Source of the DNA: Schleiferilactobacillus shenzhenensis LY-73
GTDB lineage: Bacteria > Bacillota > Bacilli > Lactobacillales > Lactobacillaceae
DNA length: 32,758 bases
NCBI RefSeq assembly: GCF_000469325.1
Contig: NZ_KI271582.1
Span: 212,688-245,445 of the forward strand
Reading direction: 5' to 3'
The translations under genes were made by a program, and so were the position numbers. Positions 1 through 32,758 of this stretch are shown in pieces. Position 1 is the first letter of the stretch. Each line of letters opens with the position of its first letter. Under the pieces are notes generated by a model. It did no database searches, was not told where the DNA came from, and saw only the letters and a list, made by a program, of their open reading frames with translations.

Positions 1-203
1 ATGCCCGATCGTAAAGTCTTCGGTGCCAGGACATATTCGCCCGGAGTGCCGCTCGAACTTCCTACTTCTTGGTAACTGCTGTTACGACGGTGAAGGAGGC
101 TGCCAGGCTTTCTTGTCGAGCGAGACTATTCCAATCTGCGGAGCCCGTAGTCACCCGGGCCAGCGCCAGACAGCAGCGTTCTATCCGTAACGAGATTTCA
201 TCC
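1..203. other. Non-coding left edge
   Basis: No gene can be assigned here. A short frame open from the window edge stops at 73-75 and could be the last two dozen codons of an upstream gene, but I do not recognise the peptide. A second open frame to about 190 has no recognisable content. The stretch contains a stem-forming repeat (89-155) and leads into a terminator. The T-box consensus was looked for and is absent. Confidence 0.4.
89..155 (+). repeat. Palindromic intergenic repeat, degenerate copy
   Basis: The left arm GGTGA (89-93), GGCT (98-101) and CAG (104-106) can pair with CTG (136-138), AGCC (142-145) and TCACC (151-155), leaving small internal loops. The right-arm block 138-158 is a perfect 21-base match to 26812-26832, which lies in the right arm of the large palindrome downstream of pyk. 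This makes it a diverged member of the dispersed repeat family described in the findings. Confidence 0.6.
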
Positions 204-15230: not shown

Positions 15231-15233
15231 ACA

Positions 15234-15372
15234 GAGGGCGGAGCCCGTTTCGGCGCAACAGGCGACTTGGCCCGACGCATCGCTTCTGCCGCCTGCGGCC
15301 CGTTGCCACAAGACATCAAGCCCGCACGCTGATTTTGTCTTATACTGTGTGTTCGCTGGCGGCCGGAGCCTC
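15234..15372 (+). repeat. Palindromic intergenic repeat, GGA/GGA-loop family
   Basis: The left end GAGGGC-GGA-GCC (15234-15245) faces GGC-c-GGA-GCCTC (15361-15372). The helices on both sides of the GGA pair, leaving GGA opposite GGA. Inside, GCAAC-a-GGC pairs with GCC-c-GTTGC (around 15256-15306). The first bases after the T-run, CAGAGGGCGGAGCC, are also found after the T-run of the yjzD terminator on the other strand (around 19873-19886). It fills most of the gap between rpmF and the DUF1836 gene. Confidence 0.6.
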
Positions 15373-15411
15373 AAGCACAGGGCATCGTCCTCCGGTGCAC
15401 ATCCCGCGTCA

Positions 15412-15420
15412 TGCTACAAT
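15412..15420 (+). promoter_or_regulatory. Promoter of the DUF1836 operon (extended -10)
   Basis: TGC-TACAAT with no clear -35. The same TGCTACAAT serves the minus-strand yjzD gene (20150-20158). A further TATACT at 15341-15346 inside the repeat is a less likely alternative. Confidence 0.5.
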
Positions 15421-15458
15421 GGATGGTGTTATCAATATTCGGAAGGTAGGCGTTTTTC

Positions 15459-16004
15459 ATGGCCCAAAATAAAGTCACTGGTTACGTCACCGCTTTGCAG
15501 CAGCTGGCGCTTCCGCGGTGGGCGGATCTGCCCGCGTTTCCGCTTTACGCAGAGCAGGCGGCCGATGTCGTGAACCAGGCCTTCGCACCGTTCGCGTTCG
15601 CCCCCGTGACGACTTCGGACATTATGTACTGGGTAAAGCAAAAAATCGTCCCCGAGGCAGGGAAAAAGAAGTTCGACCGCAACGGGATCGGCCACATTAT
15701 TGTGACTGCCTTTTTCTCAGAGGTGTATCCTTTGGCCGATGTGAAAACGGGTATTGGGCTGGTTTCTGCTGATCATCTGCCCCAGGCGTACGACTTCTTC
15801 GTGCTCACCACCCTGAATATGGTCCACCGCTATGCGACTAACTTTCAACAGGATGTCGTGATTCCCGGACAGACAGCAGCAGCGGTGAGTGCGATGGCCG
15901 TGCCGACCGCGCAGTTGGCGATCAACAGTGTCGTCCAGAAGGCGATCGTGCACCACGCCCTAGATGATTTGCGCAGCAATCCGGAAAGCCAGGGTCAAGT
16001 ATGA
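15459..16004 (+). CDS. DUF1836 domain protein
   Basis: This 181-residue protein matches the DUF1836 family of Firmicutes. The core, about residues 45-110, contains TTSDIMYWVKQKIVPEAGKKKFDRNGI, which resembles a MerR-like winged-helix start with a wing Lys cluster, followed by the helical IIVTAFFSEVYPLADVKTGI. A DNA-binding role is often suggested for the family but is unproved. The start has GGAAGG upstream at 15441-15446. Its stop overlaps the next start (ATGA at 16001-16004), so it is translated together with the 5'-nucleotidase gene. Confidence 0.85.
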   Translation: MAQNKVTGYVTALQQLALPRWADLPAFPLYAEQAADVVNQAFAPFAFAPVTTSDIMYWVKQKIVPEAGKKKFDRNGIGHIIVTAFFSEVYPLADVKTGIGLVSADHLPQAYDFFVLTTLNMVHRYATNFQQDVVIPGQTAAAVSAMAVPTAQLAINSVVQKAIVHHALDDLRSNPESQGQV

Positions 16005-17581
16005 CGGCCACGACCAAGCTGACTATTTTGTCCACCAGTGACACCCACGGCTACGTACTGCCGACGAATTACGTGATCCGCGCGGGCGTTCAGCCATTCG
16101 GCCTGACCCGGGCAGCGACGGTCATCAACACTGTGCGGCAGGAAGACCCTGAGCACACACTGGTGGTGGAGAATGGCGACTTTCTGCAAGGTTCGCCTCT
16201 GGCCTATTACGCGGTCCGGGGGACGGCTCAGCCGGACCCCACGCTGCTGACGCAGGCGTATAATGCGTTGGGCTACGACGTGGGCACGCTGGGGAACCAT
16301 GAATTCAATTATGGGTCCGCTTATCTCCGACAAGTGTTGGCCACTTTGACGTATCCGTTGGCGCAGGCCAATATCTTGGCTGCTGACGGGCAGCCCGCTT
16401 TTGCGCCCCCGTATCAGCTGATCAAGAAGGGTGAACTGACGGTGGCTGTCCTCGGTCTGACGACGAGTTTCATTCCCCATTGGGAGGGCCCGGACCACAT
16501 CGCCGGTCTGCAGTTTGCGGACGTACTGGCCACGGCCAAGACCTGGGTGCCGCGGTTGAGAAAGCTGGCCGACGTCGTCGTGGTGATTTACCACGGCGGG
16601 TTTGAACGCGATTTGGCGAGCGGCGCACCGACCGAACGGTTGACGGGCGAGAACGTTGGTTACGCCCTGTCTGCTATTCCCGGTATCGATGCCTTGGTTA
16701 CTGGGCATCAGCACCGCCAGTTAGCCGGTCACGTCCATGGCGTGCCGATTACCCAGCCAGGGTACCGCGGCGAAGCGGTGGGCCAGATTACTCTGACAGT
16801 CGCGCACAGCGGCAATCAGTGGCAGGTGCAAGCGAGTTCTGCCCGCTTGCTGCCGACCGGTGAGGCAGCGCCGGACCCGCAGATGACGACCCTGATGGCA
16901 CCGGTCCAAGCAACGGTCGAGGATTGGCTGGATTCGCCGCTGGGACGGGTCCAAGGCGACATGCGGATCACTGACCCGGACGCGGCGAGAATCACGGAGA
17001 GTCCGTATATCGAGTTCATTCAGAAGGTCCAGATGGCAGCCACCGGGACCGATATTTCCGGGACGGCGCTGTTCAACAACGAAGGCACCGGCTTCGGCAG
17101 CACGGTGTCGCTGCGGGATGTGATGACCAATTATATTTATCCCAATACGCTGGCCGTGCTGCGGGTGACCGGCAGCGTGCTGAAGGCCGCTTTAGAGAAG
17201 AGTGCCCGGTACTTCCAGCCGGGCCCTCACGGAACGATTGCGGTCAATCCGCGTTTCTTAACGCCGAAACCGCAACGGTACAATTATGACATGTACCACG
17301 GCATCACGTACACGATCGACGTGGCCCAGCCCATGGGAGAACGAATCACGCAGCTGGATTACCACGGGGCGCCCGTGCGGCCCGACCAAGTGTTGGAGAT
17401 TACGGTGAACCAATATCGGGCCGGGGGCGGCGGCAACTATACGATGTTCAGTGCGGACAGCATTGTCCGTGAGAACCAAAAAGACATGACCGAACTGATT
17501 GCTGATTACTTAAAGGCCCATCCCGTGATTACGGCGACAGCGGACCATAATTTCCACGTCATCAACAGCAGTGCCACTTAG
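16001..17581 (+). CDS. Bifunctional metallophosphatase/5'-nucleotidase
   Basis: The 526-residue enzyme belongs to the UshA/YfkN-type family that hydrolyses nucleoside monophosphates, 2',3'-cyclic nucleotides or UDP-sugars with two metal ions. Metal-site motifs are all present: D14 and H16 in SDTHG, D60 in NGDFLQG, N99/H100 in GNHEF, and H236/H238 in GHQHRQ. The C-terminal nucleotide-binding domain (about 330-520) shows the FNNEGTGFG and NQYRAGGGGNYTMF loops. There is no signal peptide, unlike the periplasmic or wall-anchored members, so it probably acts inside the cell in nucleotide salvage. Coupled to the DUF1836 gene upstream and 15 bases ahead of the lipoprotein. Confidence 0.92.
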   Translation: MTATTKLTILSTSDTHGYVLPTNYVIRAGVQPFGLTRAATVINTVRQEDPEHTLVVENGDFLQGSPLAYYAVRGTAQPDPTLLTQAYNALGYDVGTLGNHEFNYGSAYLRQVLATLTYPLAQANILAADGQPAFAPPYQLIKKGELTVAVLGLTTSFIPHWEGPDHIAGLQFADVLATAKTWVPRLRKLADVVVVIYHGGFERDLASGAPTERLTGENVGYALSAIPGIDALVTGHQHRQLAGHVHGVPITQPGYRGEAVGQITLTVAHSGNQWQVQASSARLLPTGEAAPDPQMTTLMAPVQATVEDWLDSPLGRVQGDMRITDPDAARITESPYIEFIQKVQMAATGTDISGTALFNNEGTGFGSTVSLRDVMTNYIYPNTLAVLRVTGSVLKAALEKSARYFQPGPHGTIAVNPRFLTPKPQRYNYDMYHGITYTIDVAQPMGERITQLDYHGAPVRPDQVLEITVNQYRAGGGGNYTMFSADSIVRENQKDMTELIADYLKAHPVITATADHNFHVINSSAT

Positions 17582-17596
17582 AAAGAGGAATGCGCA

Positions 17597-18484
17597 ATGC
17601 AACAACGTTTATTAGGAGTCGCCGCGGCTTTGGCGGCCAGCCTGGCTTTGCTCGCCGGCTGCGGCCAGCAAAAGATTACCACCACCAAAAAGAATTACAC
17701 AGCGGACGGCATGGTCGCCGTGATCAAGGGCAAGGCCCCGCACGACGCCCAATTGACCGCAGAGATTGACGGCAAGACCAAGAAGATTACCAACCATGAC
17801 GGCAACTTTGTGTATACCGTGGCACCCACGACGAAAGTGCAGACTGTGGCGTTAAAGAGCGGCAGCGCTAAACGCGACGTCACCGTGGCCGCCAGCAAGG
17901 GGTTTGGTACGTACCAGGCATTTGCAGCGAAATACAACATGATCTTGCTGCAGATGAACAGCAAGGGCAAGACGACGGCTAAGAGCGGTACAACAGCCAG
18001 CAGCCAGCAAAAGCAAGGTGCAGCCAGTGGCAGTCAAGGCCAACAAAGCGGCGCGACCACGACGGCCGCCGGCGCGGCGGCCGCGAAGAAGGCCCAAGCG
18101 ACTATGCAGGCCCAATTGCTGGCGCAAGCGGCGAAGCAGCCCGGGGCATTGCCGGTTACCGGTCAAGAAGGGATCCACAATATCTTGACTGTGAAGGATT
18201 CAACAGTCCGGACGAACGTACAAAACGGCCAGCTCATTGGGGCGACGTTTATCACGCCGACAGCCACGCTGAAGAGTAAGACCAAGGCTGCTGCGTTTGC
18301 CCAGCAATTTGCCCTGTTGGCATCAACGCTCGGGGCAGATGCCAAGGCTGTGATGAAGGACTTCCAGAAGCAAGCCAAGGATTCCCAAAACGGGCAGACG
18401 ACCATGAAGACGATCACCTCCAACAAGGTGCATTTCGATGTCGGTTATTCGCCGGATAAACTGTATATTTACATCACGAAGTAA
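17597..18484 (+). CDS. Putative lipoprotein
   Basis: The 295-residue protein has a lipoprotein signal peptide ending LLAGC with the lipidated Cys at 22, so it should be attached to the outer face of the membrane. Residues about 35-100 look like a small beta domain of the bacterial Ig-like type (GMVAVIKGKAPHDAQLTAEIDGKTKKITNHDGNFVYTV). A low-complexity linker rich in Gln, Ser, Ala and Thr spans about 125-175, and the last 110 residues form a second globular region. No enzyme motif is recognised. It is in the same unit as the 5'-nucleotidase (AGAGGAA ribosome site) and ends at a strong hairpin. Confidence 0.85.
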   Translation: MQQRLLGVAAALAASLALLAGCGQQKITTTKKNYTADGMVAVIKGKAPHDAQLTAEIDGKTKKITNHDGNFVYTVAPTTKVQTVALKSGSAKRDVTVAASKGFGTYQAFAAKYNMILLQMNSKGKTTAKSGTTASSQQKQGAASGSQGQQSGATTTAAGAAAAKKAQATMQAQLLAQAAKQPGALPVTGQEGIHNILTVKDSTVRTNVQNGQLIGATFITPTATLKSKTKAAAFAQQFALLASTLGADAKAVMKDFQKQAKDSQNGQTTMKTITSNKVHFDVGYSPDKLYIYITK

Positions 18485-18491
18485 GACCCCG

Positions 18492-18520
18492 TCAGCCCCC
18501 GGTGACGAACCGGGGGCTGA
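18492..18520. terminator. Shared hairpin between convergent genes
   Basis: A perfect 12-base-pair GC-rich stem, TCAGCCCCCGGT (18492-18503) with ACCGGGGGCTGA (18509-18520), with a 5-base loop. It lies between the convergent lipoprotein and GntR genes and forms the last codons of the latter (its stop is in the stem). There is no T-run on either side, so it may act as a weak bidirectional terminator or an RNA-stabilising end. Confidence 0.6.
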
Positions 18521-19442
18521 TCTCACGGTGCCAGGGCTGGGCCGTCCCCGGCCACTGTGCCGTGGCCATGAGCAGTGCCGTCCAGTCGAAATTCAGGATT
18601 TGGATACCCCAGGGCAGCAAGTCTTGCTGTAACTGGCTGGCACTCGTTGCCGGCAGATAACTGATGAGGAACAGATAAACGCGCTGCGTGTCAGCGCGTT
18701 TTTGTTTGGCCGCAAAAGCCACGGCGCGGCGGGCCTGGTTGAAGACGTAGACGCCTGCGGTCGGTTCGGTACTGGGGACATCATGCGCAGCCCCAAAAGC
18801 TTGGGTCATACTGATGAACCGGGCCTGGGCACTGGCCTGGTCCGCCAGCGGCGTATCACCGGTATCGTCATAAAACAAAGGGAGCGGCCCCGCGGCAGGC
18901 GCCACCTGAACGACTTCCTGGATCAAGGCGGCCGCTTGATCATTGGCGAAGCTGACTTGGGGAAACGGCAGCGGCTGACGACTGGTTGTACCGACCATAA
19001 AAGGTATATCTTTGTTGGATAAAGAGTATATCTTTTCGGTGGGCAACGTTGGACTGATGAGCACGACCGGCGCCTTGCCTGACGTTGGGGGCAGCGTCTC
19101 TTTGAGACTGTGCCAACGGTGGGCAGGGAGCACTGCAGAGTGCAATGTTGACCATAAGAAGGGCAGGGCGTCATCTAAATAGTAATGGCGCAGGGGGATG
19201 GCCGGCTTGCTGGGGGCAGCGGGCTGGACTTGTTTTTTAACGAAACTGCCTGCCCCCCGGCGGCGGACAATCAGCCCGGCATCAGCGAGCTCACTCAGTG
19301 CCCGCTTGCTGGTGATCAGACTGACATTGAACTCTGCCGCCAGCGCCTTTTCGGTAGGAATCTGACTGCCTGGCGAGTACGTACCGGCAGCGATACGTTT
19401 CTTCACTTCATTTTCGATTTGACGATAACGCGGTTCGGTCAT
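18492..19442 (-). CDS. GntR-family transcriptional regulator
   Basis: The 316-residue protein has an N-terminal GntR winged helix-turn-helix (about 1-70; YRQIENEVKKRIAAGTYSPGSQIPTEKALAAEFNVSLITSKRALSELADAGLIVRRRG split over helices 1-3 and wing). The C-terminal 240 residues are neither FadR-type nor UTRA. Segments such as PFPQVSFANDQAAALIQEVV recall the LacI/PBP1 sensor fold used by AraR, but the match is poor and the ligand is unknown. It is the only large gene on the minus strand and has no metabolic partner beside it. AAGAAGGTGA lies just before the start. An inverted repeat overlaps its start region (see 19468-19489). Confidence 0.85.
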   Translation of the reverse strand: MTEPRYRQIENEVKKRIAAGTYSPGSQIPTEKALAAEFNVSLITSKRALSELADAGLIVRRRGAGSFVKKQVQPAAPSKPAIPLRHYYLDDALPFLWSTLHSAVLPAHRWHSLKETLPPTSGKAPVVLISPTLPTEKIYSLSNKDIPFMVGTTSRQPLPFPQVSFANDQAAALIQEVVQVAPAAGPLPLFYDDTGDTPLADQASAQARFISMTQAFGAAHDVPSTEPTAGVYVFNQARRAVAFAAKQKRADTQRVYLFLISYLPATSASQLQQDLLPWGIQILNFDWTALLMATAQWPGTAQPWHREISPRFVTGG

Positions 19443-19467
19443 GGAGTCACCTTCTTAAAACATATAT

Positions 19468-19489
19468 TTAATCGCTGGATTAAGTATAC
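19468..19489 (-). promoter_or_regulatory. GntR gene promoter and possible operator
   Basis: On the minus strand TATACT (19488 down to 19483) is a -10-like hexamer in an AT-rich stretch. Directly downstream, TTAATC (19468-19473) is inverted as GATTAA (19478-19483) around GCTG, covering the expected transcription start. Such a site is where an autoregulating GntR protein would bind. Upstream, TATGGCATCG occurs twice 13 bases apart (19536-19545 and 19549-19558). Confidence 0.45.
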
Positions 19490-19624
19490 TATATTTTGAG
19501 CGAAATTACTGCCTTTCAGGACGGGCTCTTCTACGTATGGCATCGGTATATGGCATCGTGTTTGAATGGCCAGCCATGGACAGCATGAGCGGTTGGTGTC
19601 TCGTGATCGTTGGCCTCTGACCAC

Positions 19625-19759
19625 TAAACGGGCTCCGGTAGACAGCGGTACGTAGTCTGCGGACCCTAAGCCAAAAATTCCAAGTGCGGGGTGCGGGGAT
19701 TTCCTGCTTAAGGCCGCTCAGCTTAGTGCCGCTGACCGTCGGCCTTTGCCCTTTCACCA
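19625..19759 (-). repeat. Tandem palindromic repeat, unit 1 (diverged)
   Basis: This unit shares TAAACGGGCTCCG (19625-19637) and the loop CCAAGTGCGGGG (19680-19691) with the next unit, each exactly 135 bases apart. It folds through AGCGG (19644-19648) with CCGCT (19729-19733), GCGG with CCGC, and CTAAGC with GCTTAAG, but the arms have many mismatches. No coding potential is recognised here. Confidence 0.65.
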
Positions 19760-19880
19760 TAAACGGGCTCCGCCGAGCAGGCCACCGCAGTCTAAGGACC
19801 GTAACGCTAAAAGCCCAAGTGCGGGGCTTTTAGCGTTACGGCCATTTAGCCTGGGTGGCCTAACCGCTCGGCTCCGCCCT
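19760..19880 (-). repeat. Tandem palindromic repeat, unit 2 (well-preserved)
   Basis: GTAACGCTAAAAGCCC (19801-19816) and GGGCTTTTAGCGTTAC (19824-19839) form a perfect 16-base-pair apical stem. Further out, GCCGAGC (19772-19778) pairs with GCTCGGC (19866-19872), AGGCCACC (19079-type arm at 19779-19786) with GGTGGCCT (19854-19861), and GGGC (19765-19768) with GCCC (19876-19879). TCC faces TCC between the outer helices; read on the minus strand this is the GGA/GGA loop of the other copies. The minus-strand left end abuts the T-run of the yjzD terminator. Confidence 0.75.
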
Positions 19881-19883
19881 CTG

Positions 19884-19914
19884 CAAAAAAAGACCGCCGG
19901 TTGCCCGACGGTCT
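19884..19914 (-). terminator. Terminator of yjzD
   Basis: On the minus strand AGACCGTCGG and CCGGCGGTCT (19891-19914) form a 10-base stem with one mismatch and a 4-base loop, followed by seven T (19884-19890). It lies 12 bases past the yjzD stop. Confidence 0.8.
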
Positions 19915-26567: not shown

Positions 26568-26610
26568 CCGCCAAGCCATCCCGGGACGCCGGGGTGACTT
26601 GGCGGTTTTT
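26568..26610 (+). terminator. Terminator after pyk
   Basis: CCGCCAAG (26568-26575) pairs with CTTGGCGG (26598-26605) with inner CCCGG/CCGGG pairing, followed by five T and GTTTG. Confidence 0.85.
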
Positions 26611-26668
26611 GTTTGCGGGGAGTACGTTTGCCGATGCATGTTGACCACTCACACGCTTGTCGGTGGGA

Positions 26669-26830
26669 GGGTGACGAAGGGCGGAGCGGGAGGGGGCTCA
26701 GCAGTGAAATTGTTGTTGGCGGCTTTGCCGCCTACAACAAGGCCGAGCTTTGAGACAATGCGGTTTTTGCATTGGCTCAAAGTCGTGCCCACTGCGTTCC
26801 AGCCCCCTCCCGCGGAGCCCGTAGTCACCC
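26669..26830 (+). repeat. Large branched palindromic repeat
   Basis: The outer arms, 26669-26698 and 26801-26830, pair as GGGTGAC/GTCACCC, GGGC/GCCC and a perfect 13-base helix (26686-26698 with 26801-26813), with GGA facing GGA between the last two and GAA facing GTA between the first two. An inner helix GCAGTG/CACTGC (26701-26706, 26790-26795) encloses two hairpins: 26710-26740 (TTGTTGT and GGCGGC arms, one T-T mismatch, TTT loop) and 26741-26789 (CTTTGAG and CAATGC arms). The result is a three-way junction of about 162 bases. It fills the 300-base gap between pyk and the DUF441 gene, with no gene in it. Confidence 0.8.
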
Positions 26831-26919
26831 GGTGCGGGCCAACGCACGGCGCGCACCTCTTCCCCGCGCCCGGTAATTCCTGTAGAATGGTAGGGAATAT
26901 CAAGAAAAGGGGCTGGATG

Positions 26920-31825: not shown

Positions 31826-31837
31826 AAATAAGTGGTT

Positions 31838-31954
31838 TGTCTTCAGGGCAGGGTGCAATTCCCGACCGGCGGTAAAGTCCGCGACCCGCATTCGTTGATG
31901 CGGTGGACTCGGTGCAACTCCGAGACCGATAGTATAGTCTAGATGGAAGAAGAT
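31838..31954 (+). ncRNA. FMN riboswitch (RFN element)
   Basis: All conserved RFN blocks are present in order: TCTTCAGGGCAGGGTG, AATTCCCGACCGGCGGTA, AGTCCGCGACC, GGACTCGGTGCAACTCCGA, GACCGATAGTATAGTC and GATGGAAGAAGA. The basal helix P1 joins TCTTC (31840-31844) to GAAGA (31946-31950). It binds FMN and precedes a terminator and the riboflavin transporter gene, so it should shut off ribU when flavin is plentiful. Confidence 0.97.
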
Positions 31955-31957
31955 GCG

Positions 31958-31998
31958 AAAGCGGAGACAAACGAATTCTGTTTGTCTCCGCTTTTTTT
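31958..31998 (+). terminator. Regulated terminator of the FMN riboswitch
   Basis: GCGGAGACAAAC (31961-31972) and GTTTGTCTCCGC (31980-31991) form a perfect 12-base stem, extended by AAA/TTT, followed by seven T. Its 5' half (31963-31972) can instead pair with 31835-31844 at the base of the aptamer over ten bases with one G-U, giving a mutually exclusive antiterminator. Confidence 0.9.
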
Positions 31999-32678: not shown

Positions 32679-32703
32679 GCATCCGTGTATGAAATGTACT
32701 TCG

Positions 32704-32758
32704 CGAGACCCGGCGATTTGGGCCCTCCGGCTGGCTGGGCGTGGAACGCCATGGGCAC
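32704..32758 (-). repeat. Partial palindromic repeat at the right edge
   Basis: On the minus strand the edge reads GTGCCCA-nn-GCGTTCCA, then a CCC and GCCGGAGGGCCC. The 26669-26830 element on the plus strand reads GTGCCCA-nn-GCGTTCCA (26786-26802) followed by CCCCC and GCGGAGCCC in its right arm. The match and order point to another copy in reverse orientation whose rest lies outside the window. Confidence 0.5.

Follow-up and report, generated by a model that had tools for sequence, protein, structure and literature searches.

A window of 32,758 nucleotides of the genome of Schleiferilactobacillus shenzhenensis LY-73 (contig NZ_KI271582.1, positions 212,688 to 245,445; the genome comprises 3.27 Mb in 61 contigs) carries palindromic elements between its genes, in which two G-N-A trinucleotides face each other as an internal loop between helices. 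The original prediction, made from the letters of this window, described a single dispersed family with a GGA/GGA loop. The palindromes are real and more extensive than it stated, and they represent several families, at least two of which share the loop. Family B comprises single hairpins of 120–123 nt (123 nt is typical, and 120 nt was found in one sub-family), while families A and C are built from branched hairpins. A covariance model of family B (R1) was built from 12 copies of this genome, including the window copy at 19760-19882, and a second model (R2) was used for the branched inner hairpin of families A and C. Folding z-scores were obtained against 200 single-base shuffles. The following features were found in the window:

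1..170, plus strand: truncated element A, starting at a scaffold gap and consisting of the conserved core fused to the right hairpin's 3' strand.
15233..15250, plus strand: solo core AGAGGGCGGAGCCCGTTT of 18 nt (R1 matches 15233-15251, 13.1 bits, E 0.069).
19625..19754, minus strand: older, degraded family-B copy, head-to-tail directly behind the full one (R1 75.6 bits, E 3.8e-22).
19760..19882, minus strand: full family-B element of 123 nt (R1 146.2 bits, E 5.1e-45, being itself one of the 12 rows of R1).
19885..19913, minus strand: intrinsic terminator (GC hairpin followed by T7), read from the sequence.
26569..26610, plus strand: terminator behind a pyk-like gene and upstream of the A hairpin, read from the sequence.
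26665..26834, plus strand: right (branched) hairpin of family A (R2 match 26693-26804, 55.7 bits; fold −111.8 kcal/mol, z −9.8).
32698..32758, plus strand: another element A, represented by the 5' strand of its left hairpin, with a terminator upstream, ending at a scaffold gap.

Family-B elements start with AGA, followed by helix 1 (4 bp), GNA facing GNA, helix 2 (7 bp) and GGTTA facing T; the remainder is a long stem with small fixed loops, a terminal loop and the end GTTTA. The full window copy, aligned with 11 other copies of this genome, reads AGA-[GGGC]-GGA-[GCCGAGC]-GGTTA-[long stem]-T-[GCTCGGC]-GGA-[GCCC]-GTTTA and folds with −83.6 kcal/mol (z −10.6). The T-run of the terminator at 19885..19913 stops 2 nt short of it on the same strand. 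The degraded copy behind it was absent from the original list; head-to-tail arrangements were found in 17 of 97 B arrays. Eight of the 12 copies of this genome have the loop GGA/GGA and four have GCA/GGA. Of the three copies predicted to combine GC helices with a GGA/GGA loop, those at 19760-19880 and 26669-26830 proved correct, and the one at 15234-15372 turned out to be a collapsed core. Folding of 15234-15372 was no better than that of shuffles (z −0.2), and R1 covers only 15233-15251, where two element ends are fused over one GCGGAGC, with a T7 terminator immediately before them.

The hairpin at 26665..26834 reads GGGTGAC-GAA-GGGC-GGA-GC...GC-GGA-GCCC-GTA-GTCACCC and thus has one GGA/GGA loop and one GAA/GTA loop. 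Only the right hairpin is present at this site; the left hairpin and the core of the full element A are absent. Locus L004 contains element A whole and without gaps. It is about 512 nt long and consists of three domains, namely a left branched hairpin (TCC facing TCC), a core of about 160 nt that also folds, and a right branched hairpin. The left and right hairpins look like inverted copies, and the element is matched by copies on both strands. GTAG and GGAG motifs are located near the ends of family A. The partial members predicted at 89-155 and 32704-32758 are indeed pieces of element A (1-170 and 32698-32758) cut by the scaffold gaps: positions 32709-32758 match positions 6-53 of the L004 element at 84%, and R1 gave 8.6 bits on 32698..32758, which is chance level. 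Segments 138-158 and 26812-26832 are identical over 21 bases, as predicted. Element C, seen in the two sister species, is a branched hairpin that has no core; it measures about 165–215 nt and has two successive GNA/GNA loops six pairs apart.

Several further observations concern the branched elements. Both ends of the window (positions 1 and 32758) are scaffold gaps within family-A elements, and the assembly breaks at the left branched hairpin. The branched hairpins of L014, L026, L044, L050, L067, and L070 carry a longer module (CTAGCTCCGC...) in place of the CGTTCCAG loop strand; a similar swap of the loop strand was seen in another species of the genus, so these may be two interchangeable modules. 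Several family-C elements (L074, L165, L212) are nested in a larger inverted repeat of the type CTGGGACAAAAGTC...ACTTTTGTCCCAG. One more short hairpin repeat (CGGCGTTGCGCTTCGCGC.GCCGCC and similar) is located just upstream of some family-A elements (L005, L021, L036, L043, L048, L058).

The 11-mer GCGGAGCCCGT, which forms the 3' end of the predicted palindromes, occurs 62 times in the genome, compared with 4 occurrences of the reversed control. The predicted dispersal was therefore correct, and the number of matches was not limited to a few: many more copies exist in this genome and in the family Lactobacillaceae. Inspection of all 62 sites revealed two families, along with fragments and collapsed cores, rather than one family. 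Families A and B both carry the ends GGGC-GGA-GC...GC-GGA-GCCC. Short motifs counted in the window alone are weak evidence: GCGGAGCC was found 5 times versus 2.27 expected (5 of 100 shuffles reach 5), and GGGCGGAGC, with at most one mismatch, 16 times versus 14.25 expected.

The loop is mostly conserved while the helices change. The family-B model gave 140 matches, of which 31 were removed as opposite-strand overlaps or identical sequences; subtraction of five copies of this genome from the remaining 109 left 104 distinct copies outside it. Of these, 102 are 116–127 nt long. G-N-A is present on both sides in 70 of the 104, so the loop also persists in further copies; it is really GNA/GNA rather than GGA/GGA, since the middle base is free, and the deviating loops are tandem GA/GA registers or, in a few copies, complementary bases. 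In RNA, GNA facing GNA forms two sheared G·A pairs around a free pair. Helix 2 is represented by 57 different sequence pairs in these copies; of the 102 copies in which it has no gap, 94 pair at 7 of 7 positions when G·T is accepted. Among the 12 copies of this genome, standard pairs fill 99.4% of 492 cells, and both sides have changed in 19 of 41 pairs; neither value was reached in 500 shuffles. The covariation score of family B was 0.889 versus 0.193 for shuffled and at most 0.146 for slid alignments (124 distinct rows, in an alignment that was fitted to the structure and includes opposite-strand hits). The branched hairpins are compensated as well, at 17 of 44 pairs in a C-like set (97.4% of cells paired) and at 14 of 40 pairs in an A-like set (99.7%). 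Three of 25 inner hairpins were omitted from set A2 as rearranged, and loci L080 and L093 were left out of one of the locus analyses. The view that changing helices around a conserved loop reflect a selected structure is thus supported.

The wobble pairs indicate which strand folds. For these counts the two arms of each copy were aligned under a neutral score and restricted by helix, because fixed positions, the AGA/GTTT end among them, inflate the whole-arm count (359 versus 38). In 103 copies outside this genome (the 104 copies without one shorter than 100 nt), the inner-stem mismatches read on the GNA strand were G·U in 135 cases and A·C in 8, and 70 individual copies leaned to G·U and 3 to A·C. 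In 23 copies selected by end motifs alone, mostly from this genome (one of 24 was dropped as not palindromic), the inner stem has 22 G·U and no A·C. Since G·U mismatches far outnumber A·C on the GNA strand, this is the strand that folds, and its inner stem tolerates wobble as RNA does. The share of G·U is about 10% (135 of 1,297 cells). About 10% G-U is the level usual for RNA; the comparison made here with tRNAs (G·U in 4 of 87 pairs) covers only four tRNAs, too few to rely on. Helix 2 is nearly pure Watson-Crick (4 G·T and 2 A·C in 714 cells).

Same-strand terminators were found within 100 nt upstream of 24 of 94 B arrays with full flanks, and their T-runs end 0–13 nt before the element. Other placements were less common: 10 arrays had a terminator that faces them from the opposite end, 6 were followed by one on their own strand, and 2 were preceded by one on the complementary strand; some arrays come from one plasmid site (L311, L327, L328) and hence are not independent. 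For family A, upstream terminators on the same strand numbered 10 of 27 versus 2 (within 150 nt), at distances of 23–118 nt.

The elements are polymorphic between species. Behind the pyk terminator, this genome has element A, the sister species G001 has element B (L340, 8181-8298, R1 64.1 bits), and G002 has neither. Neither model found an element at the dnaE and 15-kb sites in G001 and G002, where terminator-like hairpins, judged by eye, are present. Genome G050, placed in Lacticaseibacillus because its copy resembles the named copy L130, carries a B element (L108) that G204, G131, and G211 lack at the orthologous site; the difference there is a larger composite insertion, so it gives no exact junction. 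One more B copy is located between copB and copY on plasmids (L365-L374). The region was matched by 90 plasmid records, 16 of them from Listeria, and 10 of the 90 were inspected, which showed the region rearranged in two alleles and, in one case, the element precisely missing between ATAAGT repeats. The copB-copY element together with its flanks is common to plasmids of many genera, including Listeria.

Covariance searches found family B in 43 of 201 sampled Lactobacillaceae genomes (15 of 40 genera) and the inner branched hairpin of families A and C in 38 of 201 (9 of 40 genera). Both samples include the S. shenzhenensis genome itself, and the copy counts per genome are lower bounds, with 9 to 18 candidates scored in each. 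In an order-wide sample of 395 genomes, B was present in 25, of which 7 were outside Lactobacillaceae. Among ten stretches inspected from this sample, groups f2 and f5 and the copper-plasmid copy L357 retain AGAG or AGTG, facing G-N-A or near-G-N-A, and GTTTA-like ends; L359-L361 are less similar. In named genomes, a pattern scan identified at least 118 stretches; 80 among the matches listed were all from lactobacilli, namely Lacticaseibacillus, Lactiplantibacillus, Levilactobacillus, Companilactobacillus, Lapidilactobacillus, Schleiferilactobacillus, and unnamed Lactobacillus. Plasmid records were matched by the B query (9) and the C query (2), all of them from Lacticaseibacillus or Lactiplantibacillus. 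The element A query had no match in plasmid or phage records, and the C query had none in phages.

The elements work like repeats of the kind of bcr or miniature inverted-repeat transposable elements (MITEs), but could not be assigned to any named family. A search of Rfam 15 with the window, L004, and 20 further loci found no family reaching the gathering threshold over an element; the only hits to pass were a flavin mononucleotide (FMN) riboswitch within the window and, next to L082, an RNase P gene, and weak hits over elements in L095 and L082 remained below gathering. GOLLD and ROOL are long RNAs of different architecture, not short interspersed repeats. They are similar in being large ornate RNAs, GOLLD having been named after lakes and Lactobacillales (according to the accessible part of PMC12286853), and differ in that the present elements have no Rfam match. 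The bcr1-bcr3 repeats of the Bacillus cereus group are also short, gene-free, and folding, occur in tens per genome, and show features of mobile elements, but they are associated with TTTAT motifs, and bcr1 is confined to that group; the accessible portions of PMC6542083 and PMC2267715, from which this comparison is taken, make no mention of GNA/GNA loops. In no case among 109 B copies were both ends within 10 nt of TTTAT or ATAAA; 7 copies had such a motif at the 5' side and 5 at the 3' side. The bacterial MITEs RUP, NEMIS, EFAR, Nezha, and ERIC, as described in the available text of PMC3733652, are non-coding sequences of 70–300 bp with terminal inverted repeats, located near genes, and the elements described here are likewise non-coding, multi-copy, and bounded by terminal inverted repeats. 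MITEs can be mobilized by transposases recognizing their inverted repeats (same source), whereas no partner was found here in searches for PF01797 and PF08388. Group IIC introns are structured RNA elements whose insertion is associated with the position behind intrinsic terminators (PMC7161350, available part), a placement like that often seen here, with no relation shown; the present elements are much shorter and, in the loci searched, lack an Rfam group II (domain V/VI) match. A group II intron origin was rejected for want of an Rfam hit and because the maturase domain occurs in one of three genus genomes. No description of such repeats was found in the openly licensed literature, a search whose coverage mostly excludes subscription journals.

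Members of at least families A/C and B are probably non-coding, non-autonomous mobile elements with a selected, folded single strand bearing GNA/GNA, since they are dispersed, folded, compensated, strand-biased, often located behind terminators, and polymorphic between species. Such elements would be copied into many intergenic sites, frequently right after an intrinsic terminator. The folded strand would be recognized during the element's own copying, presumably by a host or mobile-element protein supplied in trans, and it would probably be RNA rather than single-stranded DNA, RNA being favored because of the inner-stem wobble pattern. The recognized module could consist of the sheared G-A loop pairs and the strictly Watson-Crick second helix, and the other stem would need only to pair. 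A more specific version, which we consider doubtful, makes the elements a bacterial counterpart of short interspersed nuclear elements (SINEs), that is, gene-free structured RNAs that would be reverse transcribed in trans and inserted behind terminators by an enzyme that recognizes GNA/GNA and helix 2. A group II intron maturase domain was found once in this genome and not in two sister genomes. The Y1 transposase PF01797 was absent from all three genus genomes (5 of 14 control genomes were positive); the search for a helper covered only PF01797 and PF08388.

A number of observations weigh against a mobile element with a folded RNA strand. No gene-bearing, autonomous version was seen, although no systematic search for one was made, and no exact target duplication could be defined at the element-less sites (G050, the window sites, and the copper plasmids). 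The loop is not absolute, as 34 of the 104 B copies deviate from GNA/GNA. In the C-like set, further pair types, one of five measures, did not exceed shuffles (294 of 500). The wobble evidence is uneven: helix 3 is mixed (62 G·U versus 14 A·C in the larger set, 1 versus 4 in the motif-only set), the 12 B copies of this genome have 11 G-T and 3 A-C, the branched A/C hairpins are nearly without wobble (9 G·U and 3 A·C in all), and the bias is weaker outside Lactobacillaceae (30 versus 14 over whole arms). Model-based hits lean towards G-U, and the bias could partly stem from strand-biased C-to-T mutation. The GNA strand of the copY-copB copy lies antisense to the operon, so that its transcription there is not guaranteed. 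Finally, the presence/absence patterns could partly reflect loss, and the absence of B between two ATAAGT repeats on one plasmid could be a deletion.

Among the alternatives, the same fold may act at the level of DNA, with folded single-stranded DNA of one strand serving as a substrate for a transposase or recombinase, as in IS200/IS605 ends or integron attC sites. According to the available part of PMC4686876, DNA hairpins with a GNA loop are extraordinarily stable when two or more G-C pairs close the loop (the C-GNA-G mini-hairpin), and GCGNAGC is such a motif; the near-lack of G-T pairs in helix 2 points the same way. The G-U share of the inner stem and the lack of a PF01797 Y1/HUH transposase in three of three genus genomes (the search did not extend to other recombinases) make this explanation rather unlikely. 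The stricter idea of purely DNA-level palindromes, favored on account of helix 2, was dropped in view of the strand bias of the inner stem. That bias, RNA-like in its asymmetry, would also suit RNA elements serving the host, such as a second barrier or an RNA-processing signal that catches read-through behind terminators and is selected at each place. Their very stable folds and positions directly behind same-strand terminators are in line with such a role. However, two of the three window sites in the sister species have a terminator-like hairpin without an element and the third is empty or occupied by another family, no same-strand terminator was detected in the 100 nt upstream of 70 of 94 arrays, and a widely shared plasmid copy is antisense within an operon; we regard this explanation as unlikely.

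It is highly improbable that no selection is involved, that is, that the arms arose from template-switch correction of quasi-palindromes and that GGA/GGA is a 7-bp direct repeat, a target duplication, around an inserted palindrome. In its favor, the inner palindrome is flanked by the direct repeat GCGGAGC and solo cores exist. On the other hand, correction should remove the facing GNA mismatch, yet 70 of 104 copies retain it across 57 helix variants, and copying of arms does not predict a strand-specific wobble bias. GCGGAGC as a target duplication was rejected because the variants share G-N-A alone, with different neighbors on the two sides. Classical repetitive extragenic palindromes (REPs) or REPINs spread by a REP-associated tyrosine transposase (RAYT) can be practically dismissed. 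The elements are palindromic and intergenic, with GTAG and GGAG near the ends of family A, but their units span 120–512 nt compared with 20–40 bp for REPs (PMC3733652, available text). B units of 120–123 nt end in AGA...GTTTA rather than in a terminal GTAG, and both loop strands read GNA on one strand, which is not the head-to-head order of REPINs. REP/RAYT was rejected on the absence of PF01797 from the three genus genomes.

Apart from these elements, the window contains the FMN riboswitch at 31835-31958 on the plus strand (115.5 bits, Rfam). It is located upstream of a transporter-like gene, which we take to be riboflavin-transporter-like.

Bacterial miniature repeats are usually explained as transposon relics whose enzyme reads a DNA end. 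In the elements described here the fold is what persists: the loops are mostly kept, the helices are rewritten across genera, and the wobble pattern marks the folding strand. Being present at the scaffold gaps at both ends of the window, they probably break draft assemblies of the genus. They provide a testable case of small selfish RNAs, or folded single-stranded DNAs, in common food bacteria.

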